This document shows, piece by piece, positions 4,387 through 17,771 of a DNA stretch of 36,293 bases. The notes beneath the pieces were generated by a model. That model did no database searches, was not told where the DNA came from, and was given only the letters and a program-made list of their open reading frames with translations. This stretch comes from Helicobacteraceae bacterium CG2_30_36_10 (GTDB taxonomy: Bacteria; Campylobacterota; Campylobacteria; Campylobacterales; Sulfurimonadaceae), in NCBI GenBank assembly GCA_001873135.1, contig MNYP01000057.1, forward strand, positions 1-36,293, given 5' to 3'. The position numbers and the translations under genes were made by a program. How positions within the stretch are numbered: the first letter of the stretch is position 1; the number at the start of each line of letters is the position of its first letter.

Positions 4387-5688
4387 ATGGAAATCAAATC
4401 GAATAAAATTGACGGTGCAAATGCTGAGATTGAAGCTACAATCTTAAAAGAAGAAGTAAACGCTAAGGTTGAAAAAATTGCTAAAGAGCTTACTAAAACT
4501 GCAAAAATTGACGGTTTTCGTAAAGGAAAGGTTCCTGTCTCTGCTGTTAAAAAGCAGTATGGCGAGCGTTTAGTTCAAGATGCTGAAGCTGAGGTTCTTC
4601 GTGATGTGCTGAGCAAAGGTTTAGCAGAATTAAATATTTCTAATGACTCTTTAATCGGTGAGCCTAACATTAGCAAGTTTGACAAGAGTGATGAAAAAAT
4701 TGAAGTGACTGTGAAAATTGCTATGCGTCCTAAGATAGATTTAGGCGATTATGCTTCAATGGTTAAAGATTTTGAAAAGCCTGTTGCAAGTGATGAAGCG
4801 GTTCAAGCGAGAATCAAAAATTTGGCAGAGGCGCAAGCTCCTCTTGTTGACGTTGTTAAAAACCGTAAAATGGTGGCAGGCGATACTGCGGTACTTGACT
4901 TTGAAGGTTCAGTGGACGGTGTATTATTTGAAGGCGGAGCAGCTAAAGATTTCGCTCTTAAACTAGGTTCTGGTCAGTTTATCCCTGGTTTTGAAGACCA
5001 AGTAATCGGCATGAAAAGAGATGACGAAGCAGTAGTTAAAGTTACTTTTCCAGCAGAATACGGCGGCAAAGAGTTAGCCGGCAAAGATGCTGAATTCAAA
5101 GTAAAAATTAACAAAATCCAAGTTAAAGAAGAAGTTGAAATTAACGATGAGTTAGCTAAGAAAATGCTTCCTGGTGAAGATGATGCTTCTTTAGAAAAAC
5201 TTATAGAATTAGTTAAAACTCAAATAGAAAATGAAGAGTTGTCAAAACTTTACAATGACGATTTAAAGCCGGCTCTTTTAGAGACTCTAGTTGAAAGTCT
5301 TACATTTGATTTGCCGGAGTTTGTTGTTGAGCAAGAGATTGATATGGCTCTGAATAAAACAGCCGGAACTATGAGTGAAGAGGAGATTCAAGAACTTCGT
5401 GAGAATGCAGACAAATTAACTGCACTTCGCGATACTTTCCGTGAAGACGCAACTAAAAGCGTAAGAGCAACCTTTATAATCGATTCTCTTGCTCAAGCAG
5501 AGAATGTTAAAGTTCAAGAACAAGAAGTTATGCAAACTATTTACTATGAAGCAATGCAAATGGGTCAAGACCCTCAAAAAGCTTATGAGCAATACAAGGC
5601 ATCGGGTTATATTCCTGCAATTCAAATGTCAATGGTTGAAGACAGAGTTCTCACGGGACTTCTTAATGCAAAGATAAAAAAGGCTTAA
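4387..5688 (+). CDS. tig: Trigger factor
   Basis: N-terminal GFRKGKVP signature, FKBP-type domain [17 protein letters not shown]; precedes clpP. Confidence 0.96.
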
Positions 5689-13011: not shown

Positions 13012-13167
13012 TGTATTCTTTTCTTTGAGTTAATAAGAAATATTTTATCAAAATAGAGCATAAAAAAGACTTTGAGTTGAAAAGCAAAATAAATATTATG
13101 CTAAAATAGATGTAAATGTTTTTGATAATGTGAAAAGATTATTTAAAAACTAAAAAAGGAGTATTTG

Positions 13168-14259
13168 ATGATAAAAAAGATGTTGATAAGCTCGTTGGTT
13201 GCTGTGGCATTGGTTTTAACCGGCTGTGGAGAAGATAGTGGAGGTGTTGATAAGTTAGAGACACAACAAATGTTGGATAATGGGGACTTTAATGGTGTTA
13301 TATCTAGGGTTGAAGCGACTGCCAGCTCTGACTCTGATTATTTGGCTTTAGCGGCTGCTTATATGGGCAAAGCAGGACTTGCTTTACCTGATTTGATTGA
13401 TATTATTCTTAACAGTGATGATACGGGGGATGATGCATTTGTTACTTTTATTGATCAAGTGGATACAAAAAAAAGCAGTTCCGCGCTGAATGATTTGGAA
13501 AAATCATCGGGATATTATAAGAAAATCGTGGAAGAGAAGTGTTCTGCTACTGATGCAAATTTGAGTTATTCCCAAAAAGATATTTGTCTGTTTCTAGGGC
13601 TCTCACAAACGATGAAGGTCGCTACGGCTATCGGATATCTTGCCGATGATATTTCAGTTTTGACTGCAGATATTAATACATCTGATGCTAAATTAACAGC
13701 TTCTTTGTGCGCTATGAAATATGCTATAGACGGCAGAAGTGATACAAATGTCACTTGTAGTGTGACAGACAACAATGAAAGTATCACATTTCTAGATAGC
13801 AATAGAACATATAGTCCAATAGTTATTTCAGAAAACGGCGAAACTTTTGAGTTTTTGATTACAGATAAAAACTCAACTGCTATCACTAGCAGTTTTTGTA
13901 GTACTGAGAGCTTCTCTACAAGAATAGCTTTAGACCAAAATATTACATTTGATACTTTATCTTCATACAGTGACTATAATGCATCATACCATGCCTGCCC
14001 GGTAAATGAGACTCTCTTGGTAGTCGGTGACGCTGCTTCGGAGGCAGATATAACAACAGCCGATGTTATTGTCTCAGCACTCAATGAAGGAACAGATTCT
14101 ATTGGAGTTGCAGCGAGTGAAGATATGCAGCAATCAATAGATGAGTTTAAGTGTGAAGTCTTAGGTGGAACATATAATTATAGTTCATGTGACAAAAGTT
14201 TAGATCAAAATGTTACCGAGCAACAAGTTATAACTTATCTCAACACAAACAATAACTAG
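13168..14259 (+). CDS. Putative lipoprotein of unknown function
   Basis: Signal with lipobox (ALVLTGCGED); no recognised domain; tightly followed by the TraF-like gene. Confidence 0.7.
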   Translation: MIKKMLISSLVAVALVLTGCGEDSGGVDKLETQQMLDNGDFNGVISRVEATASSDSDYLALAAAYMGKAGLALPDLIDIILNSDDTGDDAFVTFIDQVDTKKSSSALNDLEKSSGYYKKIVEEKCSATDANLSYSQKDICLFLGLSQTMKVATAIGYLADDISVLTADINTSDAKLTASLCAMKYAIDGRSDTNVTCSVTDNNESITFLDSNRTYSPIVISENGETFEFLITDKNSTAITSSFCSTESFSTRIALDQNITFDTLSSYSDYNASYHACPVNETLLVVGDAASEADITTADVIVSALNEGTDSIGVAASEDMQQSIDEFKCEVLGGTYNYSSCDKSLDQNVTEQQVITYLNTNNN

Positions 14260-14268
14260 GGGAAAATA

Positions 14269-15456
14269 ATGATGAAAAAAATACTATCACTGACACTTTT
14301 GGGTGCTACAACATCTTTAATGGCTATGTATGCAGAGCATGCATATCTTTATAAAGATCCTCGTATTATGGGAATGGGCGGTGCCAACATTGCTGTAGGT
14401 TCTTACTCAACTTCAGTTTTTTCTAATCCTGCAGGACTTGCAACTATAAAAAAAGAAAATGGCTTAATTGTTGATCTTCTTGGTATCGGTGTCTCTTCAA
14501 CGGCGAAGGTTCAAGAGTTTGTGCAAGATATCAATGATGCTTCAGACACAGGAAACGATGCGGCGGTATCTGAAGTGCTTAAAAAGTATTCCGGAGAACA
14601 TTTTCATATCGGTGTGGACAATTACAGTTCTGTTTCTGGAAATGCAGATGCGTTTGCCTGGAGTATAGGCTTGTTAGCGGTGGCTGATGTTAACTTGATG
14701 GCACATGCCAACGGAAGTACCACCGGCGGACTCTTAGAAACCAGCTCTCGTGCGTATGGAGGAGTTGTTTTAGGTGCTGCTAAACCATACGACACGGAGA
14801 TGGGACGCTTAGACATCGGTATGGGCTTGAAATATATAACACAAAATTCTTATGAAGGTGTACTCGGGATATCGGAACTCACAGATGACTCTGAGGATAT
14901 TGGCACAAAACTTCAAAACAAGTATGAAAAAACAGCTTCGGGCATAGGTTTTGATATTGGGGCAACTTTGCACCCTTTTGATGATAACTTCTTACATCCC
15001 GCTTTTGGTTTAAGTGTTTTAAATATTGGTTCTATGAATATGGATGACAATTACGGCAGACAGCCAATGACGGTAAATATCGGTATCTCCATTTCTCCGG
15101 AAGTTCCTCTTCTTGAAAAGTTTGTTGTGGCTGTAGATTATGTTGATCTTCTTAATGCAAATAAACTTCGCATCTATGAATACAGTGATAACGGCGATAT
15201 TATTAGTTTTAGTGATTATGAAGATAGTGATTTTATGAAAAGGCTGCGTATAGGTACAGAACTAGGCTTGATTGACTCAACATACTTTTCAACTGCGCTG
15301 AATTTTGGTCTATATCAAGGCGCTTATACAGCAGGATTGAACCTTGAAGTTACAATTTTAAAACTTAATTTTGCAACCTATGAAGAGCAAATCGGTTCTG
15401 GGAGTGTTGATATATCTGACAGAAGATATATGGCACAAGTCGGTATCGGCTGGTAA
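14269..15456 (+). CDS. TraF-like outer-membrane beta-barrel protein
   Basis: Signal peptide; KDPRIMGMGGANIAVGSYSTSVFSNPAGLATI typical of TraF_2/FadL-superfamily barrels; alternating beta pattern to the C-terminus. Confidence 0.6.
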   Translation: MMKKILSLTLLGATTSLMAMYAEHAYLYKDPRIMGMGGANIAVGSYSTSVFSNPAGLATIKKENGLIVDLLGIGVSSTAKVQEFVQDINDASDTGNDAAVSEVLKKYSGEHFHIGVDNYSSVSGNADAFAWSIGLLAVADVNLMAHANGSTTGGLLETSSRAYGGVVLGAAKPYDTEMGRLDIGMGLKYITQNSYEGVLGISELTDDSEDIGTKLQNKYEKTASGIGFDIGATLHPFDDNFLHPAFGLSVLNIGSMNMDDNYGRQPMTVNIGISISPEVPLLEKFVVAVDYVDLLNANKLRIYEYSDNGDIISFSDYEDSDFMKRLRIGTELGLIDSTYFSTALNFGLYQGAYTAGLNLEVTILKLNFATYEEQIGSGSVDISDRRYMAQVGIGW

Positions 15457-15552: not shown

Positions 15553-15593
15553 TTGACGAAATAAACATAATTTTACTTGACTTACTTCGTCAA
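15553..15593. promoter_or_regulatory. Inverted repeat TTGACGAA-N25-TTCGTCAA, candidate operator
   Basis: 8-bp perfect arms 15553-15560 and 15586-15593; the right arm lies between putative -35 TTGACT (15577-15582) and -10 TACAAT (15601-15606), 18-bp spacing. Confidence 0.5.
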
Positions 15594-15606
15594 CTTGGAG
15601 TACAAT
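15577..15606 (+). promoter_or_regulatory. Putative sigma70-type promoter for the resolvase-like gene
   Basis: TTGACT-N18-TACAAT, 39 bp upstream of the start codon. Confidence 0.5.
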
Positions 15607-15644
15607 GACGATGAAATTCAATAAAAAGAGGAGTTTTACCGCTA

Positions 15645-16280
15645 ATGACAATTGCTTATATACGGTCGGATAAAAATTTTGATGCAGCACATGAACAGTT
15701 ACAACTGATAAATTCGTATGCAGTGTCAAATAGTCTCATTATTGATGACGAATTCATTGATCAAACATCACAAAATAAAAGGCTTAAAGATCGAGCAGAA
15801 GTTACTGAATATTTCCAAAAACAAACAGGGAGTACACTATTAGTATCGGATGTTTGGGTTTTAAGTACGGATATGGAAGATATTGTTCAGATGTTCAGTT
15901 GTTTACTAAAACATGATTTTAGTGTGCACTTTATTAAACAATCTGTTGTTATGTCACGACAAAGTAGTACAATGTTGGTTTTAGGATTGATGGATAATTT
16001 ACGACAAACAATACAGAGCGAATCTAGTCGAGTTATTGGAAGGCCTGTCGGCAGTAAATCTACTTCTAAGTTTGATAAACATATAAAAGAGATTATTGAA
16101 TTTATAAGAGATAAAAAAAGTGTTAGTGAAATGTCAAGAGTTTTAGATGTGAGCAGAAGTTCACTCAAAGACTACATAGAATCACGAGAGTTAAAAGAAG
16201 TTGCCTTTGGATCACTGCTTCTTGAAGTTTCATCTGACGCAGAAGAACAGGTAATCAATACGATTAGCTGTTCAAAATAA
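15645..16280 (+). CDS. Serine-recombinase (resolvase)-like protein with C-terminal HTH, probably catalytically inactive
   Basis: MTIAYIRSDKNFDAAHEQLQLI... aligns by eye with the resolvase N-terminus; GRPVGSKS + SVSEMSRVLDVSRSSLKDYI is HTH-like; Y-x-R-V-S and the LDRLGR arginines are not conserved. Confidence 0.65.
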   Translation: MTIAYIRSDKNFDAAHEQLQLINSYAVSNSLIIDDEFIDQTSQNKRLKDRAEVTEYFQKQTGSTLLVSDVWVLSTDMEDIVQMFSCLLKHDFSVHFIKQSVVMSRQSSTMLVLGLMDNLRQTIQSESSRVIGRPVGSKSTSKFDKHIKEIIEFIRDKKSVSEMSRVLDVSRSSLKDYIESRELKEVAFGSLLLEVSSDAEEQVINTISCSK

Positions 16281-16310: not shown

Positions 16311-17744
16311 ATGAGTGAAGAAAAAAAAGCTATTAAAATACCAACCCCTTGGAGAATTACACGTTACTATGTTTATTCATTAATTACTTTGGTACTTTTA
16401 GCAACACCTTGGATAGTGATAGATGGACATCATCTCTTTTTGTTAAGCTTTGATAAAATGAAATTACATCTTGCATTTATACAGTTTGACATGCAAGAGT
16501 TGTATTTGATGCCATTTTTATTGATATTGATGTTCTTAGGAATTTTTGCTATGACGGTTGTGGGCGGTCGTGTATTTTGCGGTTGGATGTGTCCACAGAC
16601 TATTTTCCGTGTCATCTACCGTGACTTAATTGAGACTAAGATTTTAGGTATGCGAAAGCGTATTAAAAACAAGCAGCAAGAGCCTGATATGTCAAAGACT
16701 GAAAACAAGGTGAAACAAGTTATTGCAATATTGCTTTGGACTGCTTTATCCATTATTGCATCGGCTAATCTTTTATGGTTTTTTGTTCCTCCTGAAGATT
16801 TTTTTGCCTATTTAGCCGATTTTGATAACCACTGGATAGTTTTTGGTACTTTGATTGCCATGACACTATTTTTAGTCTATGACATTATCTTTTTAAAAGA
16901 AGATTATTGTGCGTATGTTTGTCCTTACTCTCGAATTCAGTCTGTTTTATATGATGACCATACTGTTATGGCTCTTTATAACACGCACAGAGGTGGTGAT
17001 ATTTACGATGCAGAGCACAACAAAGTTTTCACAAAACAAAAAGAGCTTCAAGCCTTTGAACCATCAGCAGAATGTACTACCTGTGAGAGTTGTGTAACAG
17101 TCTGTCCAACACATATCGACATCCGTAAAGGTCTTCAGTTGGAGTGCATTAACTGTCTTGAGTGTGTTGATGCTTGTACAACGGTTATGGGCAAACTCGG
17201 CAAGCCTTCTTTGGTTACATGGTCAAGTGATTATGAAATTATAGATCAAAAAGGTAAAACTAAATATTTCCGTCCTAAGATTTTAGCTTATATAGGGATT
17301 TTGGTTGTAATTACGATTATCCTTGGCATGATGGGAAGTACAAAAGAACATATGCTCTTAAACATTAACAAAGAGACTCGTCTATATTCTACAAAATCAA
17401 TGCCGGATGGCAAGGTAGCAGTAGAAAATGCTTATGAATTCTTACTTCAAAATACTGAAAATAAGAAAATGAAGTTTTACTTTGAGGTAATTCCTCCAAA
17501 AGGTATGGAAGGTAAAATAACGATTGTTAGACCTAACGAAGCGTTCGAAGTTGTTCCTGGAATTAAAAAGAAAAAGATAGTTGTACTGAGAACTACGGAG
17601 GCTTTAGTTGATGATGAGAGAAAAGATACGGTTATCCCGATTACGATTAGAGCGTATGCTCTTGGTCACGAGGAGAAAATAGTTATTTTAAGAAACTCTA
17701 CATTTATTTTTCCTAAAGCAGAAATATTAAAAGCTGCCAAATAA
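16311..17744 (+). CDS. ccoG: Cytochrome c oxidase accessory protein CcoG (polyferredoxin)
   Basis: CGWMCPQTIFRVIYRDLIE, CAYVCPYSRIQSVLYD, CTTCESCVTVCPTHIDIRKGLQLECINCLECVDAC; TM segments. Confidence 0.95.
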   Translation: MSEEKKAIKIPTPWRITRYYVYSLITLVLLATPWIVIDGHHLFLLSFDKMKLHLAFIQFDMQELYLMPFLLILMFLGIFAMTVVGGRVFCGWMCPQTIFRVIYRDLIETKILGMRKRIKNKQQEPDMSKTENKVKQVIAILLWTALSIIASANLLWFFVPPEDFFAYLADFDNHWIVFGTLIAMTLFLVYDIIFLKEDYCAYVCPYSRIQSVLYDDHTVMALYNTHRGGDIYDAEHNKVFTKQKELQAFEPSAECTTCESCVTVCPTHIDIRKGLQLECINCLECVDACTTVMGKLGKPSLVTWSSDYEIIDQKGKTKYFRPKILAYIGILVVITIILGMMGSTKEHMLLNINKETRLYSTKSMPDGKVAVENAYEFLLQNTENKKMKFYFEVIPPKGMEGKITIVRPNEAFEVVPGIKKKKIVVLRTTEALVDDERKDTVIPITIRAYALGHEEKIVILRNSTFIFPKAEILKAAK

Positions 17745-17746
17745 GT

Positions 17747-17771
17747 AAACCCTAGCATAATGCTAGGGTTT
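17747..17771. terminator. Palindromic terminator after ccoG
   Basis: AAACCCTAGCAT-A-ATGCTAGGGTTT, 12-bp arms, directly after the ccoG stop. Confidence 0.7.

Follow-up and report, generated by a model that had tools for sequence, protein, structure and literature searches.

The window, i.e. the whole stretch of DNA analysed (36,293 nucleotides), is a contig of a Sulfurimonas MAG. An open reading frame with an ATG start at 15645 encodes a protein of 211 amino acids, here termed the regulator after its proposed function. It ends 30 bp before the start of ccoG (16311), as the preliminary description had stated; the ORF coordinates and the assignment of CcoG (NCBIfam TIGR02745 equivalog, 453 bits versus a cutoff of 317) confirm this arrangement. 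A palindromic, terminator-like hairpin is located 3' of ccoG, thus regulator and ccoG look like a single transcription unit (Table 1). The Pfam Resolvase model (PF00239) matches residues 3-121; its score of 29.1 bits exceeds the curated cutoff (23.3). No other Resolvase-domain gene copy is present in the window's genome. Mobile-element genes were not seen among the nearby ORFs of the window or among the neighbours of related loci, which bears out the absence of a mobile-element context noted earlier. Known RNA motifs were not found in the window. Lipoprotein-like and outer-membrane-protein-like genes (13165-15456) lie between metH and the regulator gene. This pair is also present in some relatives (L053, L057) and absent in others, where metH is located directly upstream of the regulator.

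Table 1. Features of the regulator-ccoG locus, with positions in the window
Feature	Position	Strand	Basis
Putative operator 1: TGACGA-N17-TTGACTT-N3-TCGTCA, 39-bp inverted repeat, spans the -35 box	15554..15592	+	Upstream conservation
Sigma-70-like promoter: -35 TTGACT (15577-15582), 18-bp spacer, -10 TACAAT (15601-15606)	15577..15606	+	Consensus scan, 10/12
Putative operator 2, weaker: TGACGATGAAATTCAA-N12-TTTTACCGCTA, 39 bp, ends at the start codon	15606..15644	+	Sequence; strong arm 15606-15621
Serine-resolvase relative, predicted to be dead; proposed transcription regulator, 211 aa	15645..16280	+	ORF, Pfam Resolvase, AF2 model/Foldseek, 47-sequence alignment
Regulator protein layout: resolvase-like domain ~1-127; GRPxGS linker 132-137; HTH ~144-188; C-terminal tail with C209			
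Cys86 codon	15900..15902	+	Invariant Cys among the 47 orthologs; gamma-delta and the intact relative L106 have Glu here
HTH; its recognition stretch SRSSLKDYIxSR is nearly invariant	16119..16202	+	Conservation of 169-186; HTH_7 matches
Cys209 codon, C-terminal tail	16269..16271	+	C209 in 46/47 orthologs
ccoG (cytochrome oxidase accessory protein), in one operon with the regulator and its proposed main target	16311..17744	+	NCBIfam TIGR02745 equivalog; downstream of every ortholog
Terminator-like stem-loop, end of the two-gene unit	17747..17771	.	11-bp palindromic stem; T-rich tail scored on the - strand

Resolvase fold and catalytic residues

The AlphaFold model of the regulator (pLDDT 85) shows the helices of an HTH domain at 144-188, preceded by a linker (130-137) that is disordered. 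Foldseek searches against the PDB yielded the Tn3 and gamma-delta resolvases as top matches (E 3e-7), and also the catalytic domain of Sin. A sequence-profile search of the PDB agrees with these resolvase matches. Together with the Pfam score above cutoff, they support the statement of the preliminary description that the N-terminus resembles serine recombinases. Among the 47 orthologs aligned, 46 match Resolvase at E <=0.01 and 32 match HTH_7.

Catalytic positions were read from an alignment of these 47 divergent orthologs, which are 28-77% identical to the window protein. The gamma-delta resolvase sequence served as alignment reference. In the window protein, Ser10 of gamma-delta is replaced by D9, D67 by W71, R68 by V72, and R71 by T75. 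R8 (in YIR) and R45 (R50 of the window protein) are retained. The nucleophile position, Asp in the window protein, is Ser in none of the 47 orthologs. In the LDRLGRD segment, the D67 position is Asp once, and the R68 and R71 positions are never Arg. The R8 position holds Arg in 40 and Lys in six sequences, the R45 position Arg in all. The earlier claim that the catalytic residues and conserved arginines are lost applies to Ser10, D67, R68 and R71, but not to R8 and R45. An intact catalytic Ser/Arg set was absent, by alignment, from every ortholog.

An intact recombinase from another Sulfurimonas genome (L106) served as positive control. Its Ser, R68 and R71 aligned in place; the alignment is therefore not at fault for the missing catalytic residues. 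Comparison of the family profile with gamma-delta by hhalign retained the same register across the LDRLGRD segment. As far as aligned residues can tell, the resolvase-like clade, with no intact catalytic set in any ortholog, is catalytically dead. In the MAFFT alignment with intact relatives, the clade lacks about 14 helix E residues, whereas hhalign against gamma-delta alone gave no such gap. A shortening of helix E in the regulator clade is thus likely from the alignment, but not shown. Two resolvase relatives without ccoG, L101 (4315-5001) and L102 (4387-5016), have the catalytic serine replaced as well (Gly, Lys). Dead resolvases may hence have emerged more than once in the order.

A functional site-specific recombinase with divergent residues, inverting or excising DNA at the operator pair, would be in accordance with the resolvase fold and with the two res-like inverted-repeat sites near the gene. 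It is highly improbable and was rejected. The Ser, R68 and R71 positions are never conserved, no second distant site was found in the window's genome, the regulator-ccoG order is stable across the order, and helix E is apparently shortened by 14 residues.

Invariant in the 47-sequence alignment are Q18, R50, C86, the GRPxGS linker and most of SRSSLKDYIxSR. The mean majority-residue frequency amounts to 0.84 in the recognition stretch (169-186) versus 0.48 in the resolvase domain. Purifying selection was evident from a dN of ~0.10 with saturated dS versus the closest ortholog, and from dN/dS values of ~0.004-0.1 in close pairs. Loss of catalytic residues by itself could hint at a decaying pseudogene or a chance ORF. 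This explanation is practically untenable and was rejected, as the frame is open in orthologs, dN/dS is far below 1, the HTH is near-invariant, and the gene is retained order-wide. C86 and C209 are lacking in gamma-delta and in the intact relative L106. The two clade-specific cysteines suggest thiol- or metal-based sensing, an inference without data on their reactivity.

Linkage to ccoG, operator sites and loss of the regulator

Orthologs were accepted at E <1e-20 in a sample of 13 families of the order (Campylobacterales) and 135 Sulfurimonas genomes. Pairs with ccoG were found in nine of the 13 families, and orthologs in 64 of the 135 Sulfurimonas genomes. All 103 ortholog loci (76 distinct proteins) have a co-oriented ccoG downstream of the regulator, although one genome yielded no more than a fragment of it. 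Linkage to ccoG is thus complete for the orthologs across the order. Both conditions named in the preliminary description as able to refute it, an intact catalytic Ser/Arg set and a lack of conserved ccoG linkage, were therefore decided in its favor. The weak matches L101, L102 and L106 (23-26% identity) have no ccoG. Distance matrices of regulator and ccoG gave a Mantel value of 0.65, versus a permutation maximum of 0.29. Phages, viral contigs and plasmids harbored no close relative of the regulator; the plasmid matches were recombinase family proteins of 24-27% identity.

Some loci deviate from the common pattern. A single-contig genome (G272; L049/L093) has a 149-amino-acid ccoG fragment after the regulator, attributable to a frameshift, gene decay or an assembly error. 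Lone regulator-ccoG pairs occur in two families otherwise without the pair in this sample (L083 in f2, L077 in f3), where lateral transfer or a relict is possible. One bin contains two similar regulator copies with operators on separate contigs (G088:C171 and G088:C172), representing either a duplication or mixed strains. In other families, further genes follow in the regulator-ccoG operon: one for an SQR-like flavoprotein at 18 of the 19 loci of f4, f8, f11 and f13, or DUF6858, NifX-like or SLAC1 genes. The flavoprotein belongs to Pyr_redox_2; the best named model is SQR type III, with a score far under the cutoff of that model.

The operator consensus TGACGA-N17-TWGACTT-N3-TCGTCA persists in front of orthologs whose proteins share as little as ~30% identity, and both the -35 and -10 boxes are conserved within this upstream footprint. 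In Sulfurimonadaceae, this operator is accompanied 52 bp downstream by a second, weaker one of equal length (operator 2 in the window), with counterparts better kept in other Sulfurimonas, e.g. TAACGATTAAACC...TTGATTTTCATCGTCA. Shuffling of the window gave an expectation of 0.01 operators per window. Allowing two mismatches, the operator was detected in 58 of the 64 Sulfurimonas genomes with the gene versus one of 71 without (135 genomes; Fisher 5e-30). This sole gene-less genome with an operator is a 64%-complete MAG, and ccoG is missing as well. The p-values for operator co-occurrence overstate independence, since the genomes compared are related, and are indicative only. Order-wide matches were again located mainly in front of the regulator gene. 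In the window's genome, a search with up to three mismatches revealed no operator beyond the regulator's own locus, hence the regulator there looks purely local. Taken alone and searched genome-wide, the strong arm TTGACTTNNNTCGTCA showed no excess (61 versus 81 in the reversed control).

An operator at the gene's own promoter, almost confined to gene-bearing genomes, adds evidence for a transcription regulator, although binding data are lacking. As no binding has been shown for the resolvase-like protein, the 39-bp element may instead be the site of another ccoG regulator, with the two genes linked for a different reason. This is improbable. The distribution of the element matches that of the regulator gene and not that of ccoG (one of 71 gene-less genomes, nearly all with ccoG), and it is located at the regulator's own promoter, not immediately before ccoG.

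Operators also precede other genes. An M48 peptidase operon is preceded by the operator in 23 genomes with the regulator and in one without (p 6e-8). Twelve of these loci were read in detail, the rest were assigned by close likeness of the matched sequence. A -10-like box follows this site at a distance of ~41 nt. The site keeps GACTT, which is thus part of the operator and not just of a -35 box. A placement that far before the -10-like box is more typical of activation. The sign of the regulation is therefore unsettled, which counts against the explanation favored below. In the window's own genome, the M48 operon has no operator. Locus L157 has the 39-bp operator (4978-5016) near a Dabb-domain gene and an operon of small-membrane-protein, M48 peptidase, prmC-like and DUF4149 genes; equivalent loci are L158, L159, L161, L162, L164, L169-L171 and L174-L176. 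The 70-amino-acid membrane protein of the M48 operon (EPxLExIxDYD) has no Pfam match. Rarer operator sites precede SLAC1/TehA-DUF302 (three genomes) and cytochrome c (two genomes). Single genomes have sites before DUF6858 and before NifX-like plus DUF6858 genes near cydAB. SLAC1, DUF6858 and NifX-like genes, which have an operator in trans in Sulfurimonas, belong to the families found in cis behind ccoG in other families of the order. That one lineage has these genes in cis and another has them under an operator in trans lends independent support to a real regulon.

Twelve regulator-less Sulfurimonas genomes still have ccoG beside metH, with regulator and operator both gone. A Fur/PerR-like palindrome, TTATAATnATTATAA, is located upstream of ccoG in most regulator-less Sulfurimonas (seen among L177-L188 and L191-L210). 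The box was first seen by eye and therefore tested on 20 further regulator-less genomes. Fourteen of these held-out genomes matched it in at least 12 of 14 positions, where shuffles predict 1.3. None of 300 simulated sums reached the summed score. Regulator-bearing genomes did not have the box (score 10.1 versus 9.9 shuffled). These results suggest that two unrelated control systems of ccoG have been exchanged in Sulfurimonas.

Proposed mode of regulation

Very probably, the regulator is a dead resolvase that was domesticated and now serves the regulator-ccoG operon as an autoregulated transcription factor. The regulation is inferred, without binding, expression or mutant data. In the proposed mechanism, a resolvase lost the strand-cutting chemistry and would have retained dimerization and DNA binding. 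The regulator presumably binds at its own promoter, to the 39-bp inverted repeat overlapping it. The two sites, 52 bp or about five helical turns apart, flank the -10 box. Control of the operon would most likely occur as autorepression, which is inferred from the overlap with the -35 box, the flanking of the -10 box and the analogy with transposon resolvases repressing their own promoters. Further promoters may be addressed in some species (M48 peptidase operon, SLAC1/TehA-DUF302, NifX-DUF6858), with a possible activation inferred at the M48 promoter. Relief of repression is inferred to run through Cys86 and Cys209, which may respond to a metal or to a thiol-reactive signal; the candidates are reactive sulfur, redox state and copper.

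Several points count against this mechanism, besides the placement of the M48 site. Subsites of res are shorter than the 39-bp outer-to-outer half-site spacing of this operator, so the binding geometry is unsettled. Moreover, about half of the Sulfurimonas genomes live without the regulator gene. The preliminary description had proposed a recombinase fold turned into a regulator of respiration genes. A regulator is supported by the dead site, the linkage and the operator, with regulation itself remaining an inference, and ccoG fits a respiratory role. The wider regulon appears more like sulfide or redox handling plus oxidase assembly.

Different signals have been considered. A thiol-based sensor of reactive sulfur (sulfide or persulfide), with a SqrR/CstR-like function on a resolvase scaffold, is possible, yet falls short of being probable. 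Persulfide-responsive repressors are already known (PMC9143464; PMC9774250). The two clade-specific cysteines would suit this function, and the operons and trans targets include the SQR-like flavoprotein, SLAC1/TehA, cytochrome bd and oxidase assembly. However, the SQR-like assignment is weak, ccoG alone accompanies the regulator in the window operon, and the cysteine pairs fit redox or metal sensing equally. Sensing of copper (or iron/heme), matching CcoG/cbb3 oxidase assembly to the metal supply, is unlikely. CcoG has been reported as cupric reductase, and its loss halves the oxidase activity in Campylobacter jejuni (PMC8267372). The obligate ccoG link and the Fur/PerR-like box before ccoG in regulator-less Sulfurimonas also point to such a signal. 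However, no copper-handling genes were found among the other operator targets, and a classical Cu(I) motif is missing.

A more far-reaching proposal can only be tentative: that the domesticated resolvase represents a new transcription-factor family derived from a serine resolvase, with two acquired cysteines for sensing reactive sulfur or redox state, controlling oxidase assembly across Campylobacterales and swapped with Fur/PerR-type control in the evolution of Sulfurimonas. The regulator is a candidate for the control of cbb3-oxidase assembly in Campylobacterota.

Comparison with known systems

A review of respiratory regulation in Campylobacterota mentions no resolvase, recombinase or invertase (PMC6682613). 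In the open-licence literature, to which the search was confined, no measured regulation by such a gene and no paper with ccoG plus a resolvase were found. The same literature contained no dead resolvase described as a regulator and no resolvase clade described as a dedicated transcription factor.

Recombinases regulate genes through DNA rearrangement. The Mpi-type DNA invertases (NCBIfam NF009949) are the best NCBIfam match of the regulator, near full length with 43 bits. This score is far under the 272-bit cutoff, and unlike these invertases, the regulator has no catalytic residues and no invertible segment was found. The persulfide repressors SqrR, BigR and CstR share with it, as a proposed analogy only, a conserved cysteine pair and sulfur/redox-linked targets. 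Their folds are of the ArsR or CsoR type, whereas the regulator has a resolvase fold, and its thiol chemistry has not been shown. Fur/PerR control of ccoG apparently occupies the same regulatory slot in gene-less Sulfurimonas, with an unrelated protein family and operator.

The gamma-delta/Tn3 resolvase (TnpR) shares with the regulator the N-terminal resolvase fold, the C-terminal HTH, R8 and R45, and the inverted half-sites at the own promoter. TnpR represses its own promoter from res. In contrast to TnpR, the regulator is without catalytic Ser, D67, R68 and R71, and its helix E is apparently shorter. It has two new conserved cysteines, a stable tie to ccoG and extra trans targets, and no transposon. 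Self-repressing resolvases are thus already known; new, as far as the open-licence literature goes, is a resolvase clade as a dedicated transcription factor. If a whole clade has dropped the chemistry and kept the operator, it would clearly exemplify the change of an enzyme of transposon type into a classical transcription factor.
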